A DNA stretch of 64,000 bases from Neobacillus sp. DY30 (GTDB lineage: Bacteria > Bacillota > Bacilli > Bacillales > Cytobacillaceae), in assembly GCF_030123065.1 (NCBI RefSeq), contig NZ_CP126093.1, positions 5,648,001 through 5,712,000 of the forward strand, given 5' to 3'. Shown here one piece after another: positions 23,086 through 58,826 of this stretch (the first letter of the stretch is position 1; each line of letters starts with the position of its first letter). Position numbers and translations under genes: made by a program. The notes under the pieces were generated by a model. The model ran no database searches, was not told where the DNA came from, and was given only the letters and a program-made list of their open reading frames with translations.

Positions 23086-24291
23086 TTACGAAGCTGGAAT
23101 ACGTATCATAACGGTAGTACCCCGACCTATAGAGGATTGGAAGTCAATTGTCCCATTAAATTTTTCCACAATGTTAAAGCAAATCATCATTCCTAATCCG
23201 GTTCCTTTACTTTTTAATGAATAAAAAGGAGTACCTAAAAATGCAACTTCTGCTTCTGACATTCCTCTCCCATAATCAATTACTTGAATCACAACAAAAT
23301 CTTTCTCCCTTCCAGCTGTCACAAAAACTGGATCACCAAAATGGGAAGCCTCGATTGCGTTTTTAATAAGATTGATGAGTAATTGTTTAAACTCTATGGT
23401 ATTAGCCGAGATCATACAATCTTCCGTTACGTTTAGTTCTATCCGATTATCATGTAAAAGTCCATATGAATGAAGCAAATCGGTTACACTCCGGAGAACA
23501 AGCTTCACATCGACATTTTCAGTTACATTCTCTTTATCTGGTTTCGCAACCGATAAAAATTGTGAAATAACCTCTTCAGCCGTATTTAATTCATCTATCA
23601 TCAGAGTAAAATGCCCTTTTTGAATATGGCTAAAGGAAGAATCCTTCTCATATACCTGCAAGAACCCTTTCACAACGGTAAGAGGATTTCTAATTTCATG
23701 TGCAACCGCAGCTGCAAGCTGACCGGTTGTCTTCAATCGCTCAGAATGTTGGATTTGTTCATAATAGATTTGTAGTTTCTTAATCCTTCCATTTGTTAAA
23801 TAAAAAATAAAGTAGACAATAATTTGACTCGCAACAAAGTTAAAGAAATTTCCTATTAGGTCCTCTTCTATAAAGGGGTATTGCAGTCCATCAGTCAACA
23901 CAATATATCCAAATATAATGATTATTGATATACCGTTTAAGAACAAGGAAAAATAAAAAAGCTTTGAATCAAAATAAAGAATAGAAAGTGCTGGGAGAAA
24001 ACATAAAAATACAAAAGTGGAAGATGTTTCAGGATAAAAAAGGAATAGCGTATAAAAGTAAACGGATGCAACAATTATAATGGTCAATCTTAGAACCGCA
24101 GTACCATTCTTAGGATAAAGCAGTAAACATATAGACAGGATGAACACTAGTATCAAGTGGGCTATGTAAACAACTCCAAATTCTCCAAAACGTGGATTAT
24201 CAATAAACAAACCAGATATCATAATAGCGATTACTATCCATACAACAATATAATAGATTTTTTCATTTAGGTTATTCGTAATCTCTTTCAT
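23086..24291 (-). CDS. Membrane sensor histidine kinase, KinB-like orphan
   Basis: 401 residues. About six hydrophobic segments fill residues 1-170; there is no extracellular sensor domain. A short linker leads to the dimerisation/phosphoacceptor helix with AHEIRNPLT (His198). The HATPase has the N box NLIKNAIEAS, G1 DYGRGM, F box FYSLKSKG and G2 GTGLGM. This is the layout of sporulation kinases such as KinB, which feed the Spo0A phosphorelay. No response regulator is adjacent, in keeping with an orphan kinase. AAGGGG precedes the ATG. Its stop lies 16 bp from a REP-like arm, and its first codons plus leader are duplicated at 57036-57145. Confidence 0.85.
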   Translation of the reverse strand: MKEITNNLNEKIYYIVVWIVIAIMISGLFIDNPRFGEFGVVYIAHLILVFILSICLLLYPKNGTAVLRLTIIIVASVYFYTLFLFYPETSSTFVFLCFLPALSILYFDSKLFYFSLFLNGISIIIIFGYIVLTDGLQYPFIEEDLIGNFFNFVASQIIVYFIFYLTNGRIKKLQIYYEQIQHSERLKTTGQLAAAVAHEIRNPLTVVKGFLQVYEKDSSFSHIQKGHFTLMIDELNTAEEVISQFLSVAKPDKENVTENVDVKLVLRSVTDLLHSYGLLHDNRIELNVTEDCMISANTIEFKQLLINLIKNAIEASHFGDPVFVTAGREKDFVVIQVIDYGRGMSEAEVAFLGTPFYSLKSKGTGLGMMICFNIVEKFNGTIDFQSSIGRGTTVMIRIPAS

Positions 24292-24365
24292 ACAAACCCC
24301 TTTTATAAAAGTCTAAAATGTACACTCTAAAATATACCATTTTTAGATATAAAAAGGGAATGCCA
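24269..24365. repeat. Kinase 5' end and leader, duplicated at 57036-57145
   Basis: AGGTTATTCGTAATCTCTTT and the following CAT (the first codons of the kinase, minus strand) and the adjoining leader with CACTCTAAAATAT and TATAAAAAGGGAATGCC recur at 57036-57145. Just beyond, 24370-24430 has GGTTCTG and an AAAAAAAGCCACC stretch like a decayed REP-like element. Confidence 0.75.
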
Positions 24366-24519
24366 AAGGGAGGTTCTGATCGATGTCATTACGGGTAAAC
24401 CTGGTCAAAAAAAGCCACCTAAACCATGGTACTGATTAGGTTCCTAACAACCTATTAAAATAGTTCTTTAAATCAATCTTTTTCACTTAAAAGTAGTAAA
24501 AAGAAGTCGAAATGTGAAT

Positions 24520-24900
24520 AGGGAATGAGATACCTTGTGTAATGGCAGCGGAGATTACGTTTCTTTGAGAATCATGGAATGAATAGGGCGATTGTTTCAG
24601 GAAAGCAGGGCTTGTGCGGGAAATGGGGTTGAAGAAGGAGAATATAGTAATAGCTGCGTGATTTGATCTTAATAAAAACCCTTCTATTCCATTTTTAATG
24701 AAGGCCACAAAGCCCTTAGGTGTTTCCATAAAATACTTACCGGAATCGACCAAGGAAAAATTCAATTAGACAATTATGAAAAAGAGATACTGGATACAGA
24801 GTTGAAGAATATCATTGAAAATGCTGTGAATGATGGAATAGATAAAAGACGATTTTAAAGAATATATAAACTATATCAAATTTAAAATTTGGGAGAAAAA
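24520..24900 (+). pseudogene. Decayed sinR-like gene
   Basis: Remnant of a SinR-type regulator with several frameshifts and stops. Recognisable parts are DLNKNPSIPFLMKATKPLGV (compare NLQANPSIQFLEKISSVLGV in the gene at 26658), then ILDTELKNIIENAVNDGIDK and, in the next frame, DFKEYINYIKFKIWEKNQL. The latter two match the C-terminal SinI-binding half of the intact protein at 55084 (DEEWRALIQKAINNGMSK, DDFKNYLDYIRFTKW). The DNA-binding N-terminus is barely recognisable. The opposite-strand frame 24487-24765 is not a gene. The 5' boundary is approximate. Confidence 0.7.
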
Positions 24901-25120
24901 TCAACTATAGAACTATACGTTTCTATCATTTGACAGTATTTTCAAATTACTGTCGAACTTTTTGTCACGGTTTTTGTTCGTATATTGATACGCTTATAGT
25001 ACGATTGTAATAATAAATAAGACTAACAATCTAGTTCTCGGTTGATGAGAAGCAGAATAATATGATTAAATTTCACTTCTAGTGTTAGGAATATTGTGCA
25101 TTTTTTGGAGGGTAAATTTG

Positions 25121-25234
25121 ATGACTATTACGCTGGATAAAGAATGGGTCGCTCTTATTAAGAAGGCTTTAGAGTTAGGAATATCCGTTGAAGAAATTAG
25201 GGATTTTTTGAGAAACAACCAAGTATCGGAGTAA
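25121..25234 (+). CDS. SinI-like anti-repressor (37 residues)
   Basis: A short intact frame, TITLDKEWVALIKKALELGI then SVEEIRDFLRNN. This is the SinI dimerisation motif, also found in the C-terminus of SinR. SinI-type proteins bind SinR through this helical hairpin and remove it from DNA. GGAGGG lies 9 bases before the ATG. It follows the decayed sinR-like remnant by about 220 bp, so it has outlived its partner gene and may act on the remaining SinR-like proteins in trans. It is below the length limit of most gene callers. Confidence 0.75.
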   Translation: MTITLDKEWVALIKKALELGISVEEIRDFLRNNQVSE

Positions 25235-25412
25235 CATCGATTTGGGGCTTAACAGCAATCTTTGCTATGGAAGAGCTAGGGTTCAGAAATACTTCAATTA
25301 AGCATTGAGAACTTACAAAGAACCCGCTATCCATTAGGATGCAGGTTCTTTGTTAGGGTGTTGCCTCCCTTGATATACTATTTATTGTAAAATATAAAAT
25401 TACTTTGATTGA

Positions 25413-25771
25413 CTATTCTTTTTCTACTATTAATTTTTCGATAGCATAAGCTACCCCATGTTCATTATTGGATAATGTATGGAACTGAGCCGCTTCTTTC
25501 ACAACAGATTCAGGATTGGCCATTGCCACTCCACAGCCAGCATACTCAATCATACTTAAATCATTTTCGCCGTCCCCGATGCAAATGACTTCTTCCTGCT
25601 TAATACTAAGTTTTTCGCCGATTTGTCTGACTGCATTTCCTTTGCTGACACATGGGTCAAGGATTTCTAAAAAAACGGAGTACTTTTAACGAACGTATAT
25701 TTTCCCCAGAATGATTCAGATATGTTAGCAAAAATCGTATTCAAACGTTCCGGTTCATCAATAAACATTAC
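25413..25771 (-). pseudogene. 3' fragment of a HAD phosphatase gene
   Basis: Close relative, at DNA level, of the last ~380 bp of the intact HAD gene at 58014-58826. Shared stretches include GCATAAGCTACNCCATGTTC, CATTGCCACTCCACAGCC and GCATTTCCTTTGCTGACAC. The reading frame is broken by indels near 25665-25690 and the N-terminal half, with the nucleophile motif DIDGT, is absent; similarity ends at 25771. It has the same strand as the intact copy. Confidence 0.85.
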
Positions 25772-26447
25772 TGGTCACATCCTTGTGTTTAGGATCTTCA
25801 ACAACTTCGGGTTGACAGGGCAACGTATTCACTTTGAACAATGAGAACCCCTCTCATTTACCACTTCTGTTTTTTTCCTCCACTTTCATTCAATGCGGAC
25901 CACTCGCTTTACTCGATTCTTACGGTCAACGAGAACAGCACTATATGACTTTACTCGCTTCTGTTTTTTACTTCTAGTTCCCAGGAGTTTATTCCCAAAA
26001 ATCACTAGTTATTTTTTCGTAAAAAAAACAATCGACATTAATTCACAGCAATATACACTTTATACTATTTTCTAACAATATTTTGATGTTTTTTAGCTTG
26101 TTCGAAGTGACAAATCAACTATCCTAAAATTGGATATATAAACCAGGTAATTCCTATCATCTTTATGAATACGTTTACAATTTTGAAATCACAACATTTT
26201 CCAATTGCTTATAGTTAAAAAATTCTTATCTCTTCTTAATTTTTAGACAATTACAAACTTCTACAGTATCCCTTTAATACATCATATATACTATGAAATG
26301 AGATAAAAAATAAAAATAAATAACTATTAAACAGTAAAGGGCAAAACTATTGAAAAATAGGGACGTAAAGTCACAGGTCTAAAGTTATTTTTTTGCTATG
26401 ATGGCTGGACTGCCTGAAATAAAATGTTGTATTTTGGAGGAAAAACG
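25772..26447. other. Intergenic, nothing recognised
   Basis: AT-rich, no supported gene or terminator. A 60-codon rightward frame (25893-26075) has an unnatural Arg/Thr/Phe-rich composition and no ribosome site. TTTTGGAGG at 26433 belongs to the following sinI-like frame. Confidence 0.5.
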
Positions 26448-26590
26448 ATGAATAAGATGAGAAAAGTAGATGAACTGTTGGTCAAGAGTGGGTAGATTTA
26501 ATTTTAGAAGCATTAGAAATGGGAATCACAGAGGAAGAAATTAAAAGCTTCTTTGTAGAGAAGAGAAAAGAATCAAGTAATTGGATTTGA
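26448..26590 (+). pseudogene. sinI-like gene, frameshifted
   Basis: ATG 26448 (TTGGAGG upstream) opens NKMRKVDELLVKSG and stops. A different frame continues with VGQEWVDLILEALEMGITEE then EIKSFFVEKRK, the SinI dimerisation motif. One missing or extra base near 26478 joins the two into a normal ~46-residue SinI-like protein. The gene stands 67 bp before a sinR-like gene, the classical sinI-sinR order. Confidence 0.65.
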
Positions 26591-26657
26591 ACAATTAGAC
26601 TCGTTTCCGTCACCCTTCAACTTATGCTATAATCGATTATGGAGGGAGTGACAAAAC

Positions 26658-26992
26658 ATGATTGGTGAACGCATTAAATCATATCGAATGCAAAGGAAGC
26701 TCTCATTATCCGAACTAGCTGAACGAGCAGGAGTTGCAAAATCATATATAAGCTCTATTGAACGTAACCTACAAGCAAATCCTTCGATTCAATTCCTTGA
26801 AAAAATCTCCTCCGTTCTAGGAGTATCAGTGAATACTTTACTTAACGATGAGGATAACGAAGCTAGTCAGAACGTCCTTGACACTGAATGGTCAAAACTA
26901 GTTCTAGAAGCTATGAATTCAGGTGTCTCAAAAAATCATTCCGAGAATTTTTAGATTTTAATAAGTGGAAAATAGAAAATGAGAATAAATAA
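26658..26992 (+). pseudogene. SinR-like repressor, frameshifted at a poly-A run
   Basis: The first 91 residues are a good SinR: an HTH of the XRE type (IGERIKSYRMQRKLSLSELA, AGVAKSYISSIERNLQANPS), then the SinI-binding segment LDTEWSKLVLEAMNSGVSK. The frame then ends early as NHSENF. Shifting one base in the six-A run at 26930-26935 restores SFREFLDFNKWKIENENK, the usual end of SinR-type proteins, with stop at 26992. As written the product is 98 residues lacking the last helix, which would weaken dimer formation. The N-terminal DNA-binding part is intact. Ribosome site GGAGGGAG. Confidence 0.75.
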
Positions 26993-26996
26993 GAGA

Positions 26997-27037
26997 GCGT
27001 TTATTGGTGACCTGAAAGTCATCCATAAACGCTTTTT
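26997..27037 (+). terminator. Long terminator hairpin after the sinR-like gene
   Basis: AGCGTTTATTGGTGAC pairs with GTCATCCATAAACGCT around a 6-base loop, followed by TTTTTG. Nearly the same hairpin occurs at 29091-29133. Confidence 0.85.
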
Positions 27038-27059
27038 GTGTTTGAATCCTATCACCGAC

Positions 27060-27215: not shown

Positions 27216-27424
27216 CTACTAGAAAAAATTTGATATAAGTATCATAGCTTGCCTGGAAAATATATTGGCAAAAAGTGTTTAATCTTATCTAACAGAATCT
27301 GTTGATAGTCTGACAATTAATGACAAAATATTTAAAATTTTTACAATAAATGTGTGTTTTAATTAAGTCTTATTTGTACTTTTTAATAAACTATTATGTA
27401 ATACAATAAATCAATTACTGGGGA

Positions 27425-29133: not shown

Positions 29134-29137
29134 TCAA

Positions 29138-31067: not shown

Positions 31068-32162
31068 TCAATTTATTTTTTGGTTATAAAAAATGGCTTC
31101 CTCCATCTCAAAATGTTGTTTTAAGAGACCCGCAACAACTTCAATGTTCGGTTTTTTCAAAAACCTATCATGTTCGACTCGTATTGCTTGAACTTCAATG
31201 CTTCCATTATCAGCTGTCTCCCAACCGAGTTTTTCCTCATAGTCGTTATATCTATCTCCAGAAAGTAGTAATATCTTTCCTGGATAAGGTTGGGGATTAT
31301 ATCCTCTTACTGCAGCTCTAAGGGTCATTCTTGTTTGTGTCATTCCGTTAGGCTTTTTATTTTCTGTCGTATTTGAAGCAAAAAATTTACCTACTACTTT
31401 TTGGAACATCTGTTTAATGAATAAAGCACACTCTTTCAGTGACATTTTAGATATTTTCATTAGCCTATTTAGGATTTTTTGGTTTAATGGCGTTTCTTTT
31501 GGAATGATTAGAGGGATTTTTTGGGGGTTGGCTAAATTGAGAATAGCTAACAATGAAACCTCCTCTCCTATTTGAATCAGCTTTTGAGCTATTTCATAGG
31601 CAATGGCTCCACCAATACAGAAACCCAAGAGTGAATATGGCCCATTTGGTTGTATTTTTCTTATTTCTTTAACATATATATCAGCGAGTGATTCAACCGT
31701 TATTTTCTCGTTATTTTCACTATTAGGATATCTAAGTCCAAATAAAGGTTGGTCATTCCCTAATTCCACCGCTAAATATCTATAAATTAATACTTCACCG
31801 CCTCCACCATGAATACAATAAAGAGGTTGCTTAGAGCCAAAAGATTGTATTGCCACTAGGGATGATGACATATCAATAGTCTGATTATTTGATGACAATA
31901 ACGCTGCCAGATTTTCTATTGTTCCTTCTTGAAGAATGATTGAAACAGGCAATTCCTTATTAAAGATTTTTTCTATATCCGAAAACATTTGCATAGCTAA
32001 ATAAGAATTTCCACCTAAATCGAAGAAATTATCCGTAATTCCTATGGGTCTAACATCTAATATAGATTCCCATAATTCTACAAGTTTCTTTTCAATCGTA
32101 TTCCTTGGTAAGGTAACTTGAGCATCTCTGTCTGATACTGATGATACAGACGAATGATCCAT
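31068..32162 (-). CDS. Peptidyl-carrier protein - thioesterase didomain with Cys at the nucleophile position
   Basis: 364 residues equivalent to the last two modules of a nonribosomal peptide synthetase. Residues 17-92 are a carrier domain: LPRNTIEKKLVELWESIL, then DNFFDLGGNSYLAMQMF with Ser53 as phosphopantetheine site. From about residue 105 a type-I thioesterase follows: PLYCIHGGGGEVLIYRYLA, QPNGPYSLLGFCIGGAIAYE and a late VEHDRF His. The nucleophile elbow is GFCIGG, so Cys182 replaces the usual Ser. Adenylation and condensation domains are missing. It may be a stand-alone didomain or the tail of a lost synthetase gene. AGGAGGC precedes the ATG. A serine acetyltransferase remnant ends 30 bp upstream and asnB follows, probably one transcript. 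Confidence 0.82.
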   Translation of the reverse strand: MDHSSVSSVSDRDAQVTLPRNTIEKKLVELWESILDVRPIGITDNFFDLGGNSYLAMQMFSDIEKIFNKELPVSIILQEGTIENLAALLSSNNQTIDMSSSLVAIQSFGSKQPLYCIHGGGGEVLIYRYLAVELGNDQPLFGLRYPNSENNEKITVESLADIYVKEIRKIQPNGPYSLLGFCIGGAIAYEIAQKLIQIGEEVSLLAILNLANPQKIPLIIPKETPLNQKILNRLMKISKMSLKECALFIKQMFQKVVGKFFASNTTENKKPNGMTQTRMTLRAAVRGYNPQPYPGKILLLSGDRYNDYEEKLGWETADNGSIEVQAIRVEHDRFLKKPNIEVVAGLLKQHFEMEEAIFYNQKIN

Positions 32163-32192
32163 TTTTTAGCCTCCTATCTTTTTAACAAGTAG

Positions 32193-32543
32193 CTACCAAA
32201 AGACTGCAGGATCCTTTATAAAGGCTGCCTCAATTTCTTTATAGACCATGGTTCTAATAGAAGGGATCTTCCCAAGAATAATCATTGAATCTTTATCAGA
32301 TAAACCATTACTACATTTTGTCATATGAAGTATATTCTCGATCCTATTTTTAAAATGATTTAATTCTTGGAGTGTAATTTACCCATCATGGAAAAATTCT
32401 GGCAACACTACCTTCCGATAATCATTTAAAAATATTTCTATATCCTTTTCTAATATTTTTTTTTGAAACATATTAGAAGCACTAATTGTTTCATGGCTTT
32501 TCGTAAGTTGGTTATGTATTTCCATTAAAAAGCGTTCTTCCAT
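32193..32543 (-). pseudogene. Serine O-acetyltransferase (EpsC/CysE type) N-terminal remnant
   Basis: One frame with a single internal TAA (32379-32381). Before it: IEIFLNDYRKVVLPEFFHDG; after it: ITLQELNHFKNRIENIL, LGKIPSIRTMVYKEIEAAFI and KDPAVFW. This matches the N-terminal helical domain of long serine acetyltransferases, which typically has a LFPGYF-like segment and a closing IR-ML-DVEAAYEGDPAA segment. The catalytic left-handed beta-helix domain is absent. AAAGGTGAT precedes the ATG at 32543. The first 54 residues could still be translated. A SinR-like palindrome lies 45 bp upstream. Confidence 0.6.
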
Positions 32544-32587
32544 GTTTATCACCTTTCTGCCCTTTTGTTGATTTAAAAAACAGGTTG

Positions 32588-32603
32588 GTTCTTTATAAAG
32601 AAC
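32588..32603. promoter_or_regulatory. SinR-like operator palindrome
   Basis: GTTCTTTATAAAGAAC is a perfect 16-bp palindrome made of two SinR half-sites (consensus GTTCTYT). It lies 45 bp before the acetyltransferase remnant, which heads the carrier-thioesterase/asnB group. Same form as the sites at 52803, 52896, 54462 and 54537. Confidence 0.7.
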
Positions 32604-32734
32604 GAAGAATGTATAAAAAAAATGCTTTCGCATTTAACCTAATGATTTAGTACTTATAAGGAACAAGCCTTACCTTTAAGTATTACATAAATTATAACAT
32701 GAATTCCTCTAAGGCGACAGAATTTTTAAAATTT

Positions 32735-37030: not shown

Positions 37031-37112
37031 TTTTTAATTGATTATAATATTGTCACACTTCAGGAGATTGAATATTCGGAAAACCAAGGCTATTTCTTTA
37101 TTCAAAAATCAC

Positions 37113-39511: not shown

Positions 39512-39513
39512 AT

Positions 39514-41929: not shown

Positions 41930-41948
41930 AATGACCTCTCAAACACCC

Positions 41949-43118: not shown

Positions 43119-43128
43119 AATTCCCCCA

Positions 43129-44427: not shown

Positions 44428-44493
44428 CGTTTTACCCCTAGTAGCGAACCCAATGGTTCATCCTGTCGCTTAAAATTTTCCATTGGCTTCTGA

Positions 44494-45618: not shown

Positions 45619-45669
45619 ATCAAATCCCCTTAAACAATTTTTTTCGAATTTAGCCGCCGGAAGTGCTAG

Positions 45670-46875: not shown

Positions 46876-46940
46876 TTAAATCATCCCCTAAATGAGGTAC
46901 TTGCTGCTTAATCCTTACGAATATCCGTGAGTGTATCTAC

Positions 46941-48038: not shown

Positions 48039-48039
48039 A

Positions 48040-48843: not shown

Positions 48844-48913
48844 CTGTGTCTGCCCCCGATTAAACCATAGTAATATTCAAATATTCTGTTAAATAACCCC
48901 AAAAAAATGATGA

Positions 48914-50005
48914 TTATACTGAAACATAATCAAATATCTTTTTGGCTATATCTTCCTTCTCAACTTTCTTCATATCCGCCTCCACCATGATACGGACTAA
49001 CTCCTGGAAAGAAGTTTTTGTCGGATTCCAACTTAATAATGTTCTTGCTTTTGTTGGATCTCCTAATAACTGCTCTACTTCTGCAGGTCGGAAGAATTTA
49101 GGATCAACCTCAACAATGACTTCACCTGTTGCTTTGTTAATCCCTTTCTCTTCTAAACCATGTCCTGTCCACTCGATATGGACACCAACATGTTTGAATG
49201 CTAACTCGACAAATTCTCGTACAGTATGCATTTCACCAGTTGCGATGACAAAATCCTCAGGATTATGGTGTTGAAGGATTAACCACATACATTCAACATA
49301 ATCTTTCGCATAACCCCAATCGCGTAAAGAGTCTAAATTTCCTAACAATAATTTCTTTTGTTTCCCCTGGGCAATTCGCGCTGCAGCAAGTGTGATTTTT
49401 CGTGTTACGAACGTTTCACCGCGACGTTCTGATTCGTGGTTGAACAAAATCCCATTTACTGCAAACATATTATAAGATTCACGATAATTCTTTGTAATCC
49501 AGAATCCATATATCTTTGCTACTCCATATGGAGAACGTGGATAAAAAGGAGTTGTTTCTTTTTGTGGAACCTCCTGAACTTTTCCATATAGTTCAGAAGT
49601 GGAGGCTTGGTATACACGTGTTTTATCTGTTAATCCTGAAATTCGTACTGCTTCCAAAATATTCAAAGTACCTTTTGCATCCACATCCAATGTATATCCT
49701 GGCATGTCAAAAGAAACACGAACATGAGATTGGGCTGCCAGATTGTAAATTTCATCTGGCTGGATTTCACCAATTATACGGGTAACGTTTAAAGCATCTG
49801 TAACATCTCCGTAGTGAAGGTGGAAGTTTTGGTTATTTATTAATTCATTTGCTTCTTCAACAGTAAGAATGTCTTCTAATCGTTCTTGATTATAAGAAGA
49901 GCTGCGTCGAATAATACCGTGGACTTCATATCCTTTTTCCAATAAAAACTCTGCTAAATAGGAACCATCTTGCCCTGTTACACCGGTAATTAATGCCCTT
50001 TTCAT
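48914..50005 (-). CDS. gmd: GDP-mannose 4,6-dehydratase
   Basis: 363 residues. [20 protein letters not shown] (NADP site), [20 protein letters not shown], the catalytic [14 protein letters not shown] and YAVAK-like YGVAK, then [18 protein letters not shown] and [20 protein letters not shown] are diagnostic of Gmd. Converts GDP-mannose to GDP-4-keto-6-deoxymannose, the substrate of Fcl encoded 18 bp upstream. Confidence 0.95.
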
Positions 50006-50023
50006 GTGAGTCCTCCCATTTAT

Positions 50024-50965
50024 TCATTTCACTTTCATTAATTCATTTTCCAAAAACCATTGATAGGCTTTTTGTAATCCTACTTCTAAAGGCATACTTG
50101 CTTTCCAGCCTAACGAATTTATTTTAGATACATCCACTAATTTACGAGGGGTTCCGTCAGGTTTTGTCGTATCAAAAATGATTTCACCCTCATAGCCAAT
50201 AACCTGTTTAATCGTTTCAGCAAGATTTTTAATCGAAATATCTTCTCCAACACCCACATTTACGATTTCATTTCCTTCATAATGATTCATTAAGAATAGA
50301 CACGCACCAGCCAAATCATCGGAATACAGGAATTCTCTTTTTGGTGTTCCTGTTCCCCATACCTCGACCTCAGACCTATTGTTGACTTTCGCTTCATGGA
50401 ATTTACGGATCAATGCTGGCAAAACATGTGATGTATGTAAATTGAAATTATCATTAGGGCCATATAAGTTTGTTGGCATAACAGAAATGTATTTAGTGCC
50501 AAATTGTCTATTGTATGATTGGCACATTTTGATCCCGGCGATTTTTGCAATCGCATACGGTTCATTAGTTGCTTCTAGTTCACCTGTTAATAAATATTCT
50601 TCTTTTAGAGGCTGAGGGGCAAATTTAGGATAAATGCAGGTACTTCCTAAAAAAAGTAGTTTCTTTATCCCCGTTTTATATGCTGCATCAATCACATTCG
50701 TTTGTATTAAAAGATTATCGCGAATGAAATCAGCAGGATATTCATTGTTTGCTACAATTCCTCCAACTTTTGCGGCAGCTAAAAACACATACTCAACTTC
50801 TTCTTCTTCAAAAAAGGCTAATACCTTCTCAAAATTCCGTAAATCTAATTCGTCGCTAGTTTTATAGAGCAAATTTGTAAATCCGTCATTCTGCAATCTT
50901 CTTAAAATAGCAGATCCAACTAATCCTCGATGCCCAGCAACATATATTTTTGAATGTTTTTCCAT
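50024..50965 (-). CDS. fcl: GDP-L-fucose synthase
   Basis: 313 residues. [60 protein letters not shown], and [20 protein letters not shown] with the Tyr/Lys pair, then [21 protein letters not shown] classical Fcl/WcaG with all its signature segments. Epimerises and reduces the Gmd product to GDP-L-fucose. With gmd it shows that the EPS almost certainly contains fucose or a relative. Confidence 0.95.
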
Positions 50966-50981
50966 TCAAACACTCCCTTAG

Positions 50982-51662
50982 TTAAAACGCATTCTTTGAT
51001 CCAAATAAAACGAGAAAAGTTTTTAATATGACTCTAATATCCATCCAAAGATTTCTTTCAGAAATGTATTTAAGATCCAATTCAACCATTTCCTTAAAAC
51101 TAAGACTATTTCTCCCACTAACCTGCCATAAACCCGTACAACCAGGTGTGACAGTTAACCGTTGTTTATCATAATCATCATATTCCTCTACTTCTCTGGG
51201 TAACGGCGGCCTAGGTCCAACTAAGCTCATTTCACCTTTTATTACATTCCAAAGCTGAGGAAGTTCATCAATACTTGTTTTTCTGATAAACTTTCCTACC
51301 CTCGTAATACGGGGGTCATCTTTCATCTTGAACATCGCACCACTTATTTCATTTTTTTCTAGTAAATCCTTTAATAATTCCTCCGCATTCATAACCATTG
51401 AACGAAATTTGTACATATAAAACTTTTGTCCATTTTTGCCAACTCGTTCTTGCTTAAAAAAAATAGGACCTCTTGGGTCCTGCATTTTGATAAGAATAGC
51501 AAAAATCAAAAAAAAAGGTGACAATAAGATGAAACCAGAGAAAGCACCAACAATATCTACGATACGTTTCGTAAGTAGATACCCCACTTTTTGATTAACG
51601 AAGTTTTTTTGACTAAAATCACTAACTACGTTCTCTCTTTCTTTCATTTTAGTAAGAGCCAA
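50982..51662 (-). CDS. Priming sugar transferase (polyprenyl-phosphate hexose-1-phosphate transferase)
   Basis: 226 residues. One membrane segment, IVDIVGAFSGFILLSPFFLI, followed by KMQDPRGPIFFKQERVGKNG, FYMYKFRSMVMNAEELL, KTSIDELPQLWNVIKGEMSL, VGPRPPLPREVEEYD and TPGCTGLWQVSGRNSLSF. This is the catalytic core of the short-form bacterial sugar transferases (EpsL/CpsE/WbaP C-domain). Transfers a sugar-1-phosphate to undecaprenyl phosphate and so starts each repeat unit. Confidence 0.93.
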   Translation of the reverse strand: MALTKMKERENVVSDFSQKNFVNQKVGYLLTKRIVDIVGAFSGFILLSPFFLIFAILIKMQDPRGPIFFKQERVGKNGQKFYMYKFRSMVMNAEELLKDLLEKNEISGAMFKMKDDPRITRVGKFIRKTSIDELPQLWNVIKGEMSLVGPRPPLPREVEEYDDYDKQRLTVTPGCTGLWQVSGRNSLSFKEMVELDLKYISERNLWMDIRVILKTFLVLFGSKNAF

Positions 51663-51677
51663 CAGTCTCTCCCCCTA

Positions 51678-52559
51678 CTAGTTGGATACTTTTTCAACTC
51701 CAAGATATTTTTCTAATGCTTGAAAAATACCTTCTCTCAACTCTTCATTTTTCATTGCAAAATCAATAGTTGTTAGGATAAAGCCAAGCTTTTCACCAAC
51801 GTCATATCTAGTACCTTCAAAATCATAGGCATAGACTTCTTGCAATTGATTTAATTGTTGAATGGCATCCGTTAATTGAACTTCTCCCCCAGCACCAATC
51901 GTTTGGTTGTCCAAGAATGTAAAAATCTCAGGAGTTAATACATATCTCCCCATAATGGCTAAATTTGAAGGTGGATTTTCTTTTGGTTTTTCAACAAAAT
52001 TGAATACTTTATAACGTCTTCCTTCTTGTCTAAGGGGATCAATAATTCCATAGCGGCTTGTTTGATTGTAAGGAACAGGTTGAACTCCAATAACAGATGA
52101 TCCGGTTTGTTCGTATTGCTCAATCAATTGCTTTAATCCAGGCTTTTGAGAAACAACAATGTCGTCTCCAAGTAGAACAGCAAATGGCTCATTACCAATG
52201 AATTTTCGTGCACACCATACAGCATGCCCTAATCCTTTCGGTTCTTTTTGGCGAATATAATGGATATCCACAAGCTTTGAGGAATGCTGCACTTTTTCTA
52301 ACAAATCGTACTTTTCTTTTTCCATTAACGTTTGTTCCAGTTCAAATGCATGATCAAAATGATCTTCAATTGCTCTTTTTCCTTTTCCTGTCACGATGAT
52401 GATATCTTCAATGCCAGATTCAATTGCTTCCTCTACAATATACTGAATAGTAGGCTTATCAATTATTGGGAGCATTTCCTTTGGCATTGCTTTTGTTGCA
52501 GGTAGAAATCTCGTCCCTAGGCCTGCTGCAGGTATAATTGCTTTTCTAACTTTTTTCAA
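51678..52559 (-). CDS. galU: UTP-glucose-1-phosphate uridylyltransferase
   Basis: 293 residues. [71 protein letters not shown] and [20 protein letters not shown]: a complete GalU/GtaB. Makes UDP-glucose, the input of Ugd. Initiates at TTG (52557-52559) behind GGAGGG. First gene after the structured 420-nt leader in the EPS operon. Confidence 0.94.
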
Positions 52560-52602
52560 ATATTTCCCTCCCTGTTTTTTAAAATATATGAAAACAACTT
52601 AA

Positions 52603-52653
52603 AAGCTCTTATGTATAAAGATCACTTGCGAGACATTATACATAAGAGCTAGA
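52603..52653. other. Long inverted repeat between leader and galU
   Basis: AGCTCTTATGTATA and TATACATAAGAGCT (14 bp, perfect) enclose about 22 bases. On the minus strand it is followed by only a short T run (CTTTTAAG). It could be a weak terminator read through with help of the leader RNA, or an RNA processing stem. Confidence 0.55.
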
Positions 52654-52659
52654 AATTAA

Positions 52660-52800
52660 TAATAATTGGGCATCAAACCCGACCTCACATTACACTTTCG
52701 ACGACTAGCGTCTAAGGTATCATTAACCCACAGCATAACCGAGTGCCTCCATTGATAGTGGTAAGGAGACATCACCACATTATTGAAAAATGACAAACGG
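52660..52800 (-). ncRNA. Structured leader resembling the EAR (eps-associated) RNA
   Basis: Between the second and third genes of the EPS operon, where B. subtilis carries the EAR element, there is a 420-nt non-coding gap. On the minus strand the part 52660-52800 has GGUUAUGCUGUGGGUUAAUG and several short stems: GACG-CUAGU-CGUC, GUGGU...ACCAC and GGG-UUUGAUG-CCC. This fits a compact folded RNA and not a coding gap. EAR RNAs promote processive antitermination through the long eps operon. The identification rests on position, operon type and folding by eye. Confidence 0.6.
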
Positions 52801-52802
52801 TT

Positions 52803-52818
52803 GTTCTCTATTAAGAAC
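52803..52818. promoter_or_regulatory. SinR-like palindrome in the EPS leader
   Basis: GTTCTCTATTAAGAAC: left half matches GTTCTYT exactly. Located between the kinase gene and the EAR-like RNA. Confidence 0.55.
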
Positions 52819-52895
52819 TAATTGAGTAAAAAAATAATAATAAAAATAACTTAATCGATATTCTTTATTACATCTTTGTCATTGGGTGAATTTTT

Positions 52896-52911
52896 GTTCC
52901 TAATAATGAAC
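52896..52911. promoter_or_regulatory. SinR-like palindrome (weaker) in the EPS leader
   Basis: GTTCCTAATAATGAAC has the GTTC-N8-GAAC frame with degenerate centre. Confidence 0.4.
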
Positions 52912-52955
52912 TCTTTGAGAGTTTTAATTAAATATCATAGAAAGTTATATGGTTA

Positions 52956-53646
52956 TTACCTACCGTAATAAGAATGCCGGTCACCTTTTCTTTTTTTTAT
53001 TTAACACCACACCTATGAGCTTTGCTTTTGCTGATTTTAGTGTTTCTAACGCAATTAAGCCCTTGTCTTTTTTCGTTTTGCCACTGTTTACAACTAATAC
53101 AACACCATCACATGAATTAGACAATATTTGCGTATCGGCAACTGCATTAACAGGCGGGGAATCAAATAAAATCACATCATACATTTCTAAGGCCTGCTCC
53201 ATAACCTCTTTCATTGCACCTGAACTTAGTAGTTCTACTGGATTGAGAGGAATAGGTCCACTAGGCAAAATATCTAATTGATCAATCTCCGTTTTTCGTA
53301 TAGCTCTTTGTAATGAAGTTTGTTGTATAAGTACATTGGTTAATCCAGTCGTATTTTCGGTTTTAAACATATAATGCATCATTGGTTTGCGGAGGTCTGC
53401 ATCGACAATGAGAATCTTTTTTCCTTGTTGAGCCATTACGACTCCCAAGTTTGCCGTTGTCATTGTCTTTCCGTCTCCAAACCCTGGGGACGTAATGATT
53501 AATGTACGATAGGCCTTTTCAATGGATGAAAATTGAATTTTCGTTCGAATGGTCCGATATTGTTCTGAAATCATTGATGTCGTATCGATGTAATTAATTA
53601 AGTTTGTATCTTTTCTATGTTTTGCCTTTTTACTTCGTATAAGCAT
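52956..53646 (-). pseudogene. EPS tyrosine kinase (EpsB/CpsD type), C-terminus frameshifted
   Basis: Bacterial tyrosine kinase of about 225 residues: Walker A ITSPGFGDGKTMTTANLG, Walker A' ILIVDADLRKPMMH, Walker B DVILFDSPP. As written the frame ends with LNKKKKR at 52981. Changing the length of the eight-base T run at 52991-52998 (poly-A in mRNA) by one gives instead RKGDRHSYYGR and a stop at 52956, restoring the Tyr-rich tail that this family autophosphorylates. All catalytic motifs are intact, so activity may remain while the phosphorylation tail is lost. The start is ATG 53646 with an AGGTGAGG site, overlapping the upstream gene by 17 bp. Confidence 0.8.
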
Positions 53647-54376
53647 CAATTGCCTCACCTCTAATTGATAAATTAACTTGTTTTCCATTTTTCTTTTGTT
53701 TGCCTTTTATTTCAGACACTGCACCTAATACCGGAAGATCAAATACCTCTTCCACGTCACGTTCTGTTTTAATCGAATCATCCATCCGCTCAAGCATGAA
53801 GCAAAGTCCTATACTTGCGAGTAGTCCAAATATAAAAGCAACGACTATTATTAATTTCGGATTAAGATTAATTGGTGATGGATTAACTTCTGCCTTTGAT
53901 AAAATATTCTCATTTTCAACATTCAGTAATGTTGGAATTTGTTCATTAAATGTCTCTGCAATCGCGTTAGCTATGTTTGCTGCCGTTTCAGGGTCTTTAT
54001 CTTGAACTGTTACAGTAAATACTTGTGATTTCTCTCCTCTGCTTATTTCAATCTGATTAATTAACGACTTTCCAGGGCGATCTAATCCCAACTCGGCACT
54101 AACAATATCGAGTATCATTGGACTCTTGATGATATCACTATAGGTCTCTATTAATTGGAGGTTTGATTGGATTTGGTTATAATTAATTCTTTGCCCATTT
54201 TCTTGTGTTTGATTTACAAGAATCTGGGTAGAAGATTGATAGAAGGGAGTTACAAAGTAAAAACTATAAATACCACTTGTAACTGTTGCGAGTAATGTGA
54301 TTAATACTATCATCCATAAACGTCTCTTAACGGCATTAAATAACTCTTTTACTGTAATAAAATCCAATTCTTCCAT
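53630..54376 (-). CDS. EPS chain-length determinant / kinase modulator (EpsA/YveK type)
   Basis: 248 residues with the Wzz architecture: membrane segment about 20-45 (LWMIVLITLLATVTSGIYSF), a long extracellular part with QSSTQILVNQTQ and VTVQDKDPETAANIANAIAE, and a second membrane segment LIIVVAFIFGLLASIGLCFM followed by a cytoplasmic tail that activates the kinase. Controls polymer length together with the kinase encoded next. ATG 54376 is chosen because GGAGGG lies six bases upstream. First gene of the main EPS operon; two SinR-like palindromes precede it. Confidence 0.88.
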   Translation of the reverse strand: MEELDFITVKELFNAVKRRLWMIVLITLLATVTSGIYSFYFVTPFYQSSTQILVNQTQENGQRINYNQIQSNLQLIETYSDIIKSPMILDIVSAELGLDRPGKSLINQIEISRGEKSQVFTVTVQDKDPETAANIANAIAETFNEQIPTLLNVENENILSKAEVNPSPINLNPKLIIVVAFIFGLLASIGLCFMLERMDDSIKTERDVEEVFDLPVLGAVSEIKGKQKKNGKQVNLSIRGEAIDAYTK

Positions 54377-54461
54377 AGTTCCCTCCATTAAAATATATTT
54401 TTCAAATATTGGTAGTAAAAATTTTTACCGCTCCTACCTATAAGGCTTTTTACTCACATAT

Positions 54462-54477
54462 GTTCTTAATGATGAAC
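54462..54477. promoter_or_regulatory. SinR-like operator upstream of the EPS operon (proximal)
   Basis: GTTCTTAATGATGAAC, GTTC-N8-GAAC, about 85 bp upstream of the first EPS gene. Confidence 0.6.
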
Positions 54478-54536
54478 AAGTTGGGAATACAAAAGCACTA
54501 CTAAAAATAAATAATTTCTTTATAAGCTTATTTTAT

Positions 54537-54552
54537 GTTCCTTATAAAGAAC
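54537..54552. promoter_or_regulatory. SinR-like operator upstream of the EPS operon (distal)
   Basis: GTTCCTTATAAAGAAC, differing by one base from the perfect palindrome at 32588. A further half-site GTTCTTT follows at 54570. Two spaced sites fit cooperative repression of the eps promoter by SinR tetramers. Confidence 0.68.
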
Positions 54553-54687
54553 GTGTCAAGTTGAAAATTGTTCTTTTTAAAATTCCATTTAACAAATGTA
54601 TTGACATTTTAATGTCAGTCAATATTCTTCCTACATGCTTATCCCCATCTTGTTAATACCAACTCTTATGACAATAATCATCAGGTC

Positions 54688-54703
54688 GTTCTTAAAAGAG
54701 AAT
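54688..54703. promoter_or_regulatory. Degenerate SinR-like sites in the EPS/sinR divergent region
   Basis: GTTCTTAAAAGAGAAT here, GTTCTCT at 54809 and GTTCTTTATAATGAAA at 54860 carry one good half each. They lie between the divergent EPS operon and the sinR-like gene at 55084, so autoregulation is possible. The 106-codon open frame 54761-55081 across this region is not supported as a gene. Confidence 0.4.
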
Positions 54704-55083
54704 TGACTTAAAAAATATATCATACAAATTCTTATTTGAACAATACAAAAATGGTAAATTTTGAAATTCCCACTTGGTCCGTTTAGCAAACAAGAAAGCA
54801 TTCTTCTTGTTCTCTATTTCCTTAATTTATTCTTAAAAATACTTGTAATGCATCATTTCGTTCTTTATAATGAAAATGTGAAATCGCTGTTCAATAAGCA
54901 TGATCTTTTTCAAACATATAATTCAAGCTGTGTTTGCATTCAATCTGCTGCTGTTGACTACAAACAAAGCTTTAATGTGCCAAATGTTGGATTTTACTTA
55001 TTAGTAATATTTTATATCCATTTATTTTTTTCACAATCAGTTCGTTATAACGCATATACATTATCTATTTTAAGGAGGTAAAA

Positions 55084-55443
55084 ATGGTTGGAGTTCGTAT
55101 AAAAAAATTGAGAGAACAAAAGGGGTATTCCATTACGGAATTAGCAGAACTTGCAGGAGTATCCAAATCATACCTGAGTTATATTGAACGAAATCTTCAA
55201 AATAATCCCTCACTCCAGTTTTTATCAAAGATTGCTGTACCATTGGATACTACGATTACATTTTTATTATGTATTGATGATAACGAATCACACCCTTTGA
55301 TGGATCAACTACTGGATGAAGAGTGGAGGGCCTTAATTCAAAAGGCTATTAATAATGGAATGAGTAAAGATGATTTCAAGAATTATCTGGATTATATTCG
55401 TTTTACAAAATGGTTAAATCAAAAAAAGGAGTTTGGTGAATAA
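55084..55443 (+). CDS. SinR-like biofilm repressor, intact copy
   Basis: 119 residues. XRE helix-turn-helix at 1-65 (VGVRIKKLREQKGYSITELA, AGVSKSYLSYIERNLQNNPS), a short acidic linker, and the SinI/SinR oligomerisation part MDQLLDEEWRALIQKAINNG then MSKDDFKNYLDYIRFTKW. It differs much from the frameshifted copy at 26658 in the linker. In B. subtilis SinR represses eps and tapA operons; here the gene is divergent from the EPS operon, with matching operator-like palindromes between. A perfect TAAGGAGG site precedes the ATG. A sinI-like gene follows after 2 bp. Confidence 0.85.
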   Translation: MVGVRIKKLREQKGYSITELAELAGVSKSYLSYIERNLQNNPSLQFLSKIAVPLDTTITFLLCIDDNESHPLMDQLLDEEWRALIQKAINNGMSKDDFKNYLDYIRFTKWLNQKKEFGE

Positions 55444-55445
55444 GC

Positions 55446-55601
55446 ATGACAACAACTATTATGGAACAAGATTCTAAAACCCCTTTTGATGATGAATGGA
55501 AGAAATTAATATCATATGCAAAAATTTCAGGCCTTACAAAAGAAGATATACTTCAATTCTTGCAAAAAAATAGTACGAATGAATTATGTAAAAAGATATA
55601 A
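55446..55601 (+). CDS. SinI-like anti-repressor
   Basis: 51 residues: TTTIMEQDSKTPFDDEWKKL then ISYAKISGLTKEDILQFLQK. The DDEWKKLI--AKISGLTKEDI part is the SinI dimerisation hairpin. Starts 2 bp after the stop of the SinR-like gene, so repressor and antagonist are co-translated; the order is reversed relative to B. subtilis sinI-sinR. Not reported by length-limited gene finders. Confidence 0.72.
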   Translation: MTTTIMEQDSKTPFDDEWKKLISYAKISGLTKEDILQFLQKNSTNELCKKI

Positions 55602-56065
55602 GATTACAATTCTTACATCCTTTTAAAGTGAGATGTATCCTTTTCAGGTTTCTATGAGTTCTTTAGGATGACACTGAACTACTAGAATGGGGTAAACTTT
55701 AGCTAAGGATTTTCACAAAATCTTTACACCAGAAAACAAGAACACCTTAACCCACGACATCTATGCCCCCTGCACTTTTATTTTGTTTTGCATTTAGCCG
55801 CATAGGCACTTATGTATATTTGTATTCTTTCTTTATCTTTTTCACCAAGTACTTAAATCCCTCTCCATTTTGTTTGTTATTCGAAAAAATGGAAATTTCA
55901 GGGTCTGCTTAAGGTCGGTCATTTTTATAAAAATATTTCCGTTTAACTTATGTAGGATTATACGCTGTTACTGAATTTTAAGTGAATCCATAGTGAATTT
56001 TTGGAATCCTCTTTGCTGAGTTTATTCTGGAGTTATTAAAAATTGTTCTTTTGGAGGTAATAATC
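55602..56065. other. Intergenic between sinI-like gene and manA
   Basis: No supported gene. GTTCTTT at 56045, four bases before the manA ribosome site, is a single SinR-like half-site. Confidence 0.5.
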
Positions 56066-57010
56066 TTGCAACCTTTATTCTTGAAGTCAGTTTTTAAAGA
56101 GAGAATTTGGGGCGGTACGACCTTGAAGATGGAATTTGGGTATGATATTCCAACTGAAAATACAGGGGAGTGCTGGGCAATTTCAGCTCATCCAAATGGA
56201 CCATCAGTGATTGAGAATGGCCCTTATGCGGGAGTAGGGTTGGACACGTTATGGAAGGAACACCCAGAGCTGTTTGGACATCCAAAGGAAGAGGTTTTCC
56301 CACTGTTAACAAAAATATTAGATGCCACTATGGACTTGTCTGTCCAAGTTCATCCAGAGGACTCATATGCTAAGGTCTATGAAAATGGCGAGTTAGGGAA
56401 AACGGAATGTTGGTATATTCTTGATTGTAAAGAAGATGCCTACATGATCTATGGCCATCATGCACAGTCAAGGGAAGAATTAATGGAGCAAATTAACAAA
56501 GGTCAATGGAATAAACTATTGCGTCGAGTTAAGATTAAGCCAGGGGATTTTTTCTATGTTCCTAGCGGAACCATTCATGCGTTATGTGAAGGAACCCTTG
56601 TAATTGAAACACAGCAAAGCTCCGATACGACGTATCGTGTATATGATTATGAACGCCGGGATGCAAATGGAAATTTACGTGAACTTCACCTGGAGAAGGC
56701 GATTTCTGTAACCAGTGTGCCGTTTCAAGAAACTGGTGTTATTCCCAATATTAAAGTGAGGGAAAATGTCGCGATTACTACTTTCGTAGAATCTGAGTTT
56801 TTCTCTGTACATAAATGGGATATTACCGGTCAATCTACCTTCCTAAATGATAATCAATATTTACTAATGAGTGTGATAAATGGGGAAGGAATCCTTGTTC
56901 ATAATGGGAATCGTTACTCACTGAACAAAGGAACGCACTTTATTATTCCGGTTGGATTTGGAGAATTCAGTATAGAAGGAAGTTGTAGTTTAATTATTTC
57001 GCATAAATAA
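56066..57010 (+). CDS. manA: Mannose-6-phosphate isomerase, class I
   Basis: 314 residues, cupin-type zinc enzyme: QPLFLKSVFKERIWGGTTLK, LSVQVHPEDSYAK with zinc ligands, GKTECWYILD, FYVPSGTIHALCEGTLVIET and RVYDYERRD. Interconverts fructose-6-phosphate and mannose-6-phosphate, the entry to GDP-mannose and GDP-fucose made by the EPS locus. It initiates at TTG 56066 behind GGAGG; the in-frame TTG at 56051 overlaps that site. Read away from the EPS operon, behind the sinR/sinI-like pair. Confidence 0.92.
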   Translation: MQPLFLKSVFKERIWGGTTLKMEFGYDIPTENTGECWAISAHPNGPSVIENGPYAGVGLDTLWKEHPELFGHPKEEVFPLLTKILDATMDLSVQVHPEDSYAKVYENGELGKTECWYILDCKEDAYMIYGHHAQSREELMEQINKGQWNKLLRRVKIKPGDFFYVPSGTIHALCEGTLVIETQQSSDTTYRVYDYERRDANGNLRELHLEKAISVTSVPFQETGVIPNIKVRENVAITTFVESEFFSVHKWDITGQSTFLNDNQYLLMSVINGEGILVHNGNRYSLNKGTHFIIPVGFGEFSIEGSCSLIISHK

Positions 57011-57035
57011 GATGTGGGGGTCTGACCCCAGTACT

Positions 57036-57145
57036 AAGGTTATTCGTAATCTCTTTCATACGTACCCATTTTGTAAGTATCTAAAAAATGCACACTCTAA
57101 AATATTCCATTTATAGCCATAAAAAGGGAATACTAGAATACCAGG
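57036..57145. repeat. Remnant of the kinase 5' end and leader
   Basis: Matches 24269-24365: first codons of the histidine kinase (minus strand) plus leader. Just left lies the palindrome GGGGTCTGACCCC (57018-57030), where the match begins. The rest of the kinase gene is absent. Confidence 0.75.
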
Positions 57146-57158
57146 GGAATGCCACAGG

Positions 57159-57194
57159 AATTGCAATAGGGATTGCAATAGGGATTGCAATAGG
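57159..57194. repeat. Three tandem 12-bp units
   Basis: GATTGCAATAGG three times (first unit AATTGCAATAGG), running directly into the GGGACGGTT arm of the next repeat. Confidence 0.85.
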
Positions 57195-57239
57195 GACGGT
57201 TCCCGCGGTATCTGTAAAAAAATCCGCCAGAACCGTCCC
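57193..57239. repeat. REP-like inverted element
   Basis: GGGACGGTT at the left and CCGCCAGAACCGTCCC at the right, the latter identical to 23054-23069. Same family as 20244-20306. Confidence 0.7.
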
Positions 57240-57260
57240 TAAAATTCATTTCCTCAAATT

Positions 57261-57626
57261 TCAGTTTTTTAAGAGAGTTAAATGTCCGACGATTTCCTTC
57301 GCTTCAAATTTTTCCATCGGCGGAAGGGCAATTACAGTTAATGAACCCGCTTTAATCTCTGTTAAGCCACTATCATGTATACTGAAAAAACCTCTTTTTT
57401 CTAACTTTTCAAGCTCGGTTTGTTTACCCTTTAGAATAATTTTCTTCATTCCGCTCTGTACCCATTCCACGAAATCATCGTGCCTTTCAGGAAAAGGGGA
57501 ATGTGAGGACATCAGGTTAATCGTACTTAGAGTTGCAGCATGAGCCACTTGTGCGGCTGTTTTACCCGTCGACATTTTTAGGTCTTGGTTTACAATAAAA
57601 TATTGAACGAGATCTCGTTTATTCAT
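57261..57626 (-). CDS. Peptidyl-tRNA hydrolase, PTH2 family
   Basis: About 121 residues. QYFIVNQDLKMSTGKTAAQV then AHAATLST is the PTH2 opening with the catalytic Lys; GMKKIILKGKQTELEKLEKR and HDSGLTEIKAGSLTVIALPP complete the fold. PTH2 enzymes, typical of archaea and eukaryotes and scattered in bacteria, release peptide from stalled peptidyl-tRNA. In Bacillus the house-keeping enzyme is the unrelated Pth (SpoVC), so this is an extra. The ATG at 57626 is preferred to the TTG at 57638, which abuts the AAGGA site. Confidence 0.82.
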   Translation of the reverse strand: MNKRDLVQYFIVNQDLKMSTGKTAAQVAHAATLSTINLMSSHSPFPERHDDFVEWVQSGMKKIILKGKQTELEKLEKRGFFSIHDSGLTEIKAGSLTVIALPPMEKFEAKEIVGHLTLLKN

Positions 57627-57685
57627 CTTCGTGTTCAATCCTTCTATAAAGGTTAATTCAAAGCTTCATACTTTAATCATTCTAT

Positions 57686-57979
57686 CTAGTACCGTGACTT
57701 ACGTAGTTTCGCATCAAGAAAAATATTACCGAAAGGAATAAACGCAACAGCAATCGCTGAGGTTACCCATATAAAGGACCACCTAATCTTAAAAGTTACA
57801 TATGCAATAGTAAACAAATACATGATAAAGAACAAACCGTGAAGCGAACCAACAACTGTTACTACTTCTGGGAGACCTGCAAAGTACTTAAGCGGCATAG
57901 CAATAAATAACAAAATGAGCAGGGATAAACCTTCTATAAATCCCATTAACCTAAATCGACCAATTGCTGAGGTTAACAT
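57686..57979 (-). CDS. DUF3817 integral membrane protein
   Basis: 97 residues with three hydrophobic segments; the pattern GRFRLMGFIEGLSLLILLFI, AMPLKYFAGLP then VGSLHGLFFIMYLF with GNIFLDAKLRK at the end is DUF3817 (YdzA-like). Function unknown. Lies between the PTH2 and HAD genes on the same strand. Confidence 0.82.
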   Translation of the reverse strand: MLTSAIGRFRLMGFIEGLSLLILLFIAMPLKYFAGLPEVVTVVGSLHGLFFIMYLFTIAYVTFKIRWSFIWVTSAIAVAFIPFGNIFLDAKLRKSRY

Positions 57980-58013
57980 ACTATTCCCTCCTATCTTTTA
58001 TCTACCATGCATT

Positions 58014-58826
58014 TTAATTGTTTAATACTAATTTTTCTATGGCATAAGCTACTCCATGTTCATTATTAGATAGTGTATGGAACTGGGCCGCTTCTTTCAC
58101 AACAGATACTGCATTGGCCATTGCCACTCCACAGCCTGCATACTCAATCATACTTAAATCATTCTCGCCATCCCCCATGCAGATGACCTCTTCTCGTTTA
58201 ATTCCAAGTTTTTCAGCCAGCTGTTTGACTGCATTTCCTTTGCTGACACGCGGATCTAGGATTTCTAAAAAGAACGGAGTACTTTTTACGAACGTATATT
58301 TTTCCCAGAATGATTCAGGTATGTTGGCAATGCTCGTATTCAAACGGTCCGGTTCATCAATGAACATTACCTTCGGAATTAGCATGTCCTCTGGTACTTC
58401 ATCAATTGGCAGATAATGAAGAGGCATCTGATTGATATGAGCTTCATGAATGGTATACTCGTTTATTACTCTATGCGGTGTATAAAGATGTTCTGTATCA
58501 AAGTAATGGAGCGGTGAACCAATCTTTAGGCCTAATTCATATATGTCTTTTAAATCATCATAGCTTAAGGTAATTTGGGATTCTACATCCTTGCTGTACG
58601 TATTTTGTACAAGTGCACCATTAAAGGTAATCACAAAGTCATCTTCATCGTTTAATTTTAATTCCTCTATAATCGATTGGACACCAACGATTGGCCTCCC
58701 CGTACAGATTACCACCTTTACTCCTTTTGCTTTAGCAGCTTGAATGGCGTCATTGACCTCTTTTGTAATTTCCTTTCGATCATTCATCAGTGTTCCATCA
58801 ATATCTATTGCTATTAATTTATACAA
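58014..58826 (-). CDS. HAD-superfamily sugar phosphatase, Cof type (intact copy)
   Basis: 270 residues. Motif I DIDGTLMND (nucleophile and acid Asp), motif II TFNGA region, motif III Lys within RVSKGNAVKQLAEKLGI and motif IV GDGENDLSMIEYAGCGVAMA, with the large C2-type cap of the Cof/YidA group. Dephosphorylates small sugar or vitamin phosphates. A truncated second copy lies at 25413-25771 on the same strand, on the other side of the EPS locus. Confidence 0.92.
   Translation of the reverse strand: MYKLIAIDIDGTLMNDRKEITKEVNDAIQAAKAKGVKVVICTGRPIVGVQSIIEELKLNDEDDFVITFNGALVQNTYSKDVESQITLSYDDLKDIYELGLKIGSPLHYFDTEHLYTPHRVINEYTIHEAHINQMPLHYLPIDEVPEDMLIPKVMFIDEPDRLNTSIANIPESFWEKYTFVKSTPFFLEILDPRVSKGNAVKQLAEKLGIKREEVICMGDGENDLSMIEYAGCGVAMANAVSVVKEAAQFHTLSNNEHGVAYAIEKLVLNN

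Follow-up and report, generated by a model that had tools for sequence, protein, structure and literature searches.

A Campbell-type single crossover leaves a scar in which one whole and one truncated copy of a gene flank the inserted DNA in direct orientation. Exopolysaccharide (EPS) operons of Bacillus, in turn, are marked by the epsC (EAR) RNA element and are controlled by SinR and SinI. A third point of comparison is offered by transformation merodiploids of Streptococcus pneumoniae: as described in PMC3784515, unequal crossing-over with incoming DNA places a repeat-bordered region in the chromosome twice in tandem, and the duplicated genes can then change freely. Here we analyze a 64,000-nucleotide stretch of Neobacillus sp. 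DY30 (assembly GCF_030123065.1, contig NZ_CP126093.1, positions 5,648,001 to 5,712,000; hereafter, the window), in which an EPS cluster lies between partial direct repeats of a sensor histidine kinase gene and a HAD-family phosphatase gene. The explanation that we prefer, and to which we give about an even chance of being correct, is that the kinase/HAD locus is present here in two divergent versions, brought together around EPS DNA by recombination in a shuffled zone and trimmed by deletions at the inner ends.

The original prediction held that the 5′ end of the kinase gene and the 3′ half of the HAD gene recur in the same order and strand on both sides of the EPS cluster, and that each gene is intact on one side only. 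All of this was borne out by comparison of the window with itself, which returned a kinase repeat (24269-24361 versus 57037-57131; 85.3% identity over 95 columns, E-value = 5e−23, 106 bits) and a HAD repeat (25425-25771 versus 58023-58370; 87.9% over 348 columns, E-value = 2e−122, 435 bits), both plus/plus and identically ordered. By comparison, 10 Markov-1 random windows, each aligned with itself, gave top off-diagonal scores of 31.9-38.3 bits. Aligned directly, the left and right flanks are 85-88% identical in the paired segments. The kinase gene is whole on the left (23086-24291, minus strand), has HisKA/HATPase_c domain matches, and its first 7 codons and leader (24269-24361) are all that recurs on the right, as a stub (57037-57131) cut at its left, insert-facing side. 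The HAD gene (Hydrolase_3) is whole on the right (58014-58826, minus strand), and the repeat spans only its 3′ half; the left copy (25412-25772, minus strand) corresponds approximately to codons 153-268, is cut at its right, insert-facing side and has a broken frame, as seen from two separate tblastn pieces and from codon positions. Thus the cut ends of both remnants face the insert of ~31 kb. The start-to-start offsets are 32,768 bp for the kinase pair and 32,598 bp for the HAD pair, a difference of 170 bp, and the spacing from the kinase repeat to the HAD repeat is 1064 bp on the left and 892 bp on the right. When pairs unrelated to each other were simulated in a simple way, such agreement and closeness arose with a probability of ~0.0003, a value that takes account neither of the number of repeat pairs in the window nor of possible linkage of kinase and HAD. 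The longest identical tracts between the repeat copies are 25-26 bp. The window holds a further repeat pair (1495-2045 and 21881-22434), formed by two AHSA1/SRPBCC-type genes that are 84% identical and ~20 kb apart.

The DNA between the kinase repeat and the HAD repeat differs between the two sides. Segments 24362-25412 and 57132-58013 have no similarity to each other, the best match having an E-value of 0.39 over 11 bases. The left segment contains a decayed sinR-like stretch with internal stops (24665-24892, plus strand), detected by tblastn with the SinR-like protein encoded at 55084 (28% identity over 79 residues, E-value = 4e−5), and a small sinI-like gene (25082-25234, plus strand) adjoining the HAD fragment. 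The right segment contains a PTH2-family gene (57261-57638) and a DUF3817 gene (57686-57979), both on the minus strand. A repetitive extragenic palindromic (REP)-like element had been thought common to both intervals, and this did not hold: the hairpin on the right (57191-57248) is related to a sequence at 23041-23078, which lies past the 3′ terminus of the left kinase gene, on its far side. Other short repeats (8736-8931, 22868-22954 and 63047-63131) are dispersed, recur between genes in several relatives and are possible substrates for shuffling.

Divergence of the two HAD copies is comparable to that between species. Over shared columns the left and right copies are 87.1% identical; the left copy compares with those of genomes G039 (89.0%), G015 (88.6%) and G020 (88.3%), and the right copy with those of G016 (89.1%) and G017 (88.5%). 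In a HAD tree of 24 rows both copies fall within one polytomy of 10; the best tree groups the left copy with G015, at support 60/0. Approximately unbiased (AU) tests gave p = 0.331 for a constraint joining the left copy with G039, 0.348 for the right copy with G004 and 0.077 for the right copy with G016. Differences between left and right at codon positions 1/2/3 number 11/6/29, a pattern like that between species (4/4/34 for G039 versus the right copy). Where 11 relatives hardly vary, 4/2/2 changes and a one-base gap are seen in the left copy and 1/0/6 changes in the right copy, while among these relatives themselves changes at positions 1 and 2 sum to 0-5 and those at position 3 to 2-15. The excess of third-position differences implies that most of the divergence accumulated under constraint. 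Judging from these substitution patterns, most of the difference between the copies arose while both HADs worked, the left one decaying later and modestly. A hybrid HAD of donor and resident parts was also considered as a candidate; sliding identity and separate half-gene trees gave no clear signal and hence no crossover point.

To place the locus among relatives, we used rpoB of 19 other genomes, according to which G039 is closest to the source genome (94.0%), followed by G008, G016 and G017 (91.3-91.7%). Long DNA matches to HAD are present in 22 of the 60 other genomes. Kinase orthologs (81-86% identity) are found in six of 59 (G016, G008, G017, G004, G038 and G020; G060 was excluded from this count). 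A short junction of a single kinase with a single HAD, as expected of an empty site, is absent from all five relatives carrying both genes at 81% or more: the two lie ~9 kb apart in G017 (in reversed order), 11.5 kb in G004 (in the same order), 63 kb in G038, 70 kb in G016 and 154 kb in G020. In G004, kinase and HAD are separated by other genes, one stretch of which resembles DNA left of the window, and no repeats were found when 32 kb of this locus was compared with itself. A near-empty version of the site, with a single whole HAD, is present in G039. There, a sinI-like gene (31636-31776), the whole HAD (32121-32942), PTH2 (33352-33723) and then the right-flank block follow within ~7 kb. This block matches positions 63158-66219 at 83%, so that its first part, 63158-64000, closes the window and the rest runs past the window end; it is common to G039 and G015 (81-83%). 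The left side of our locus resembles G039 at 75% over two short segments within and ahead of sinI and at 89% in HAD, and the right side shares with it HAD and then, ~4.3 kb on, the same block. No kinase ortholog was detected in G039 (best match 36% identity), and the 20 kb read there had no EPS match. Outside G039, sinI was found beside HAD in none of ~35 other loci examined by pattern search and tblastn. In G015, PTH2, HAD and the right-flank block are ordered as in the source genome, with more DNA between them, and in G016 and G017 PTH2 sits directly before the kinase. In G016 a manA gene lies ~1.8 kb past the kinase, inverted relative to the source genome.

As for the EPS block, genome G010 carries the region 29134-55637 colinearly, with gaps, in pieces of 73-89% identity, those over 1 kb being 80-89% identical. 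These values can be assessed against several measures of how far the two genomes have diverged: a 20-kb stretch at 1.0 Mb, used as a single yardstick, matches G010 at 66-81%, the flank right of the G010 EPS cluster is 66-78% identical to the source genome (70-76% in colinear pieces), and rpoB identity is 84.6%. Moreover, that right flank maps to 5.056-5.067 Mb in the source genome, ~0.6 Mb from the locus in the window, and no EPS match was found in the 40 kb read there; the left flank of the G010 copy has no match in those 40 kb either, so only the right flank is placed. In a DNA search with 37100-57040, in which four candidates per genome were scored, EPS coverage comparable to that of G010 was seen in no other genome among the matches listed, on which the absence of the cluster elsewhere rests. 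The edges of the shared block (29.1 and 55.6 kb) fall inside the repeats, so that the DNA between the repeats exceeds it. Since the G010 copy is colinear, lies at another chromosomal site and is more similar than the genome yardsticks, the EPS block very likely moved between lineages; its patchy presence points the same way. The claim that the EPS locus was acquired is therefore supported, and from these comparisons the cluster looks to have come horizontally from a distant congener lineage. Its G+C content (35.1%, versus 36.8-38.1% to either side within the window and 36.5-40.9% in five stretches taken elsewhere in the genome) is a weak compositional hint of acquisition. Carriage of the cluster by a plasmid or phage found no support: megablast of 30700-55640 against a plasmid collection returned three Lactococcus records, each covering 2% of the query, and the TupA-like protein had no relative in viral contigs. 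About 0.7 kb past the right-hand edge of the G010 cluster there is a 417-bp 23S rRNA-like fragment (L140 15626-16042; G010 ~5205616-5206032), and none was present in the 9 kb scanned at the colinear site of the source genome. Our literature search found no paper combining Neobacillus, genomic island and exopolysaccharide.

How the cluster came to lie between the repeats could be explained as follows. The left version of the locus consists of the kinase, sinI and the HAD 3′ half, with the sinI-HAD junction of G039. The right version comprises the kinase stub, PTH2, DUF3817, the whole HAD and the shared right flank, and its PTH2-kinase and PTH2-HAD neighbours match those of other congeners. Most likely, homologous or homology-assisted recombination within these genes brought in DNA of another Neobacillus, in a Campbell-like or merodiploid joining after which the two versions stood in tandem and enclosed the EPS DNA. 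Deletions would then have trimmed the left HAD and the right kinase from their insert-facing sides. How the recombination proceeded, from which donor and in what sequence, and whether the EPS DNA arrived in the same step, are matters of inference, as is DNA uptake by the source species. Several observations weigh against such a joining. A donor with EPS genes beside the kinase/HAD locus was not found. In G039, PTH2 sits on the opposite side of HAD, and this genome is a draft of ~110 contigs; 20 kb were read of the 40.9-kb contig that holds the locus. A constraint making the left and right HADs sisters gave a likelihood equal to that of the free tree (AU p = 0.454); an old duplication is thus compatible with the HAD tree. 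Sliding identity along the right HAD revealed no clear switch from donor-like to resident-like sequence. Finally, relaxation of the left fragment is modest: it has 6 changes at positions 1 and 2, and two working controls, G052 and G038, have almost as many, namely 5.

Among the alternatives, the original prediction favored a local tandem duplication of one kinase-HAD unit, followed by EPS insertion between the copies and decay of the redundant halves. The shared order and strand, the similar spacing, the offsets agreeing within 170 bp and the permitted sisterhood of the two HADs are all what such a duplication would leave. We nonetheless regard it as rather unlikely. The HAD copies are 87.1% identical to each other and up to 89% to those of other species, hence no closer to each other than to some of these, the surroundings of the two copies match different relatives, and the two units are not colinear throughout, the DNA between their repeats being unrelated. 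Because the copies differ as species do, and mainly at third positions, local duplication fits only if both copies stayed functional over roughly the time since the species separated. The lack of a kinase ortholog in G039 and of a single short kinase-HAD junction in relatives also speaks against it. A recent tandem duplication was rejected on the divergence of the copies, the unrelated middle segments and the codon positions, the HAD tree being too weak to decide. Joining of two versions by recombination is a simpler account of species-level divergence between the copies than local duplication.

Alternatively, no joint event took place: kinase, HAD, PTH2, manA, GNAT and AHSA1 genes were reshuffled singly and two scraps came to flank the EPS cluster by chance. 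The relatives lend this some credit, given the variable distances of ~9 to 154 kb between kinase and HAD in the five genomes. Window genes are scattered among relatives. The AHSA1 gene is doubled too. In G060, HAD is cut to its 5′ part inside a contig (L222 10738-11092), and G015 has an extra 86-bp scrap of the HAD 5′ end (L145 11599-11684). Scattered genes and HAD scraps support a zone of frequent rearrangement, and this keeps separate origins of the two scraps in play. However, near-equal offsets, the same strand and cuts that both face the insert are unlikely to have arisen independently (the simulated probability given above, with its limits), and we find this account doubtful. Beyond the window end, a 5.7-kb block (71259-76937) is 95% identical to G017, versus 91.3% in rpoB, and in that genome it lies between kinase and HAD; it is perhaps a recent transfer.

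The repeats might also be the attachment sites of a site-specific mobile island, or the ends of a composite transposon. This reading has the direct repeats at both ends in its favor and is otherwise highly improbable, considering that the repeats are gene pieces 12-15% diverged with identical tracts of at most 25-26 bp, that the right flank of the G010 copy belongs to a different chromosomal place, and that integrase, transposase, conjugation or recombinase families are absent from the 50 window proteins scanned, as are tRNA and tmRNA genes from the window. The proteins scanned were 50 of 55 chosen from 79 listed open reading frames (ORFs), those starting at 1502, 2057, 4361, 15952 and 16781 being left out. 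With no integrase or conjugation genes, no tRNA and no precise attachment (att) repeats, the locus does not resemble an integrase-borne genomic island or integrative and conjugative element, and integrase- or transposon-borne islands were rejected on the same grounds. The suggestion that the island is excisable found no support here either, although excision via the identical tracts of 25-26 bp is conceivable.

Other features complete the locus. Near its left end a cyclic di-GMP (c-di-GMP)-I riboswitch (26330-26417, plus strand) is followed on its 3′ side by a frame-broken sinI-like ORF (~26450-26590, plus strand) and a SinR-like gene (26658-26954, plus strand). In G010, a c-di-GMP riboswitch of the GGC family lies directly before a sinI-like gene, beside the left end of the EPS cluster, and a putative one has been reported ahead of sinI in Bacillus methanolicus (PMC4342826). 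The EPS block encodes an asparagine synthase, PCP-thioesterase, Wzy, glycosyltransferases, a flippase, Wzz and AAA proteins and a SinR-SinI-like pair; the insert also encodes a 546-residue protein without a Pfam match. The epsC (EAR) RNA element is at 52667-52777 (minus strand, 110 bits), the SinR-like and SinI-like genes are at the right end of the block (55084-55601, plus strand), and a manA-type mannose-6-phosphate isomerase gene (56051-57010, plus strand) adjoins the kinase stub.

The locus is a concrete example of the apparent transfer of an entire EPS cluster, sin-type control genes included, from one species to a different chromosomal site in another, and the gene scraps at both ends may record its joining without a visible mobility enzyme. 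It also calls for caution, because paired scraps around an island mimic a tandem duplication until relatives reveal a species-level difference between the copies. More broadly, cargo might land again and again in the kinase/PTH2/HAD neighbourhood of Neobacillus genomes, captured when divergent versions of the same small genes recombine, with no dedicated mobility enzyme involved. We consider this generalization improbable; if it were true, the cargo would include whole EPS clusters travelling with their own c-di-GMP riboswitch-sinI switch.

In comparison with known systems, the block resembles Bacillus eps operons in having EPS biosynthesis genes, an epsC RNA and SinR/SinI-like genes at its ends, but it differs from them in that its gene set is shared over most of its length only with G010 among the matches listed, and in the c-di-GMP riboswitch at one end. 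Like a Campbell-type scar, the locus has whole and truncated gene copies in direct orientation, here flanking apparently foreign DNA; the near-empty site of G039 carries a single HAD, lacks a kinase ortholog and has PTH2 on the opposite side. Unlike such a scar, it involves two genes and differing DNA between the repeats, and no hybrid halves were resolved. The duplications in the S. pneumoniae merodiploids (PMC3784515) are ~100-900 kb and fresh, whereas the Neobacillus copies are 12-15% diverged, ~33 kb apart and trimmed, and the event behind them is reconstructed. Taken together, the flanking gene pieces are probably scars of recombination, and such scars are of a known kind, to which this locus would add one example.

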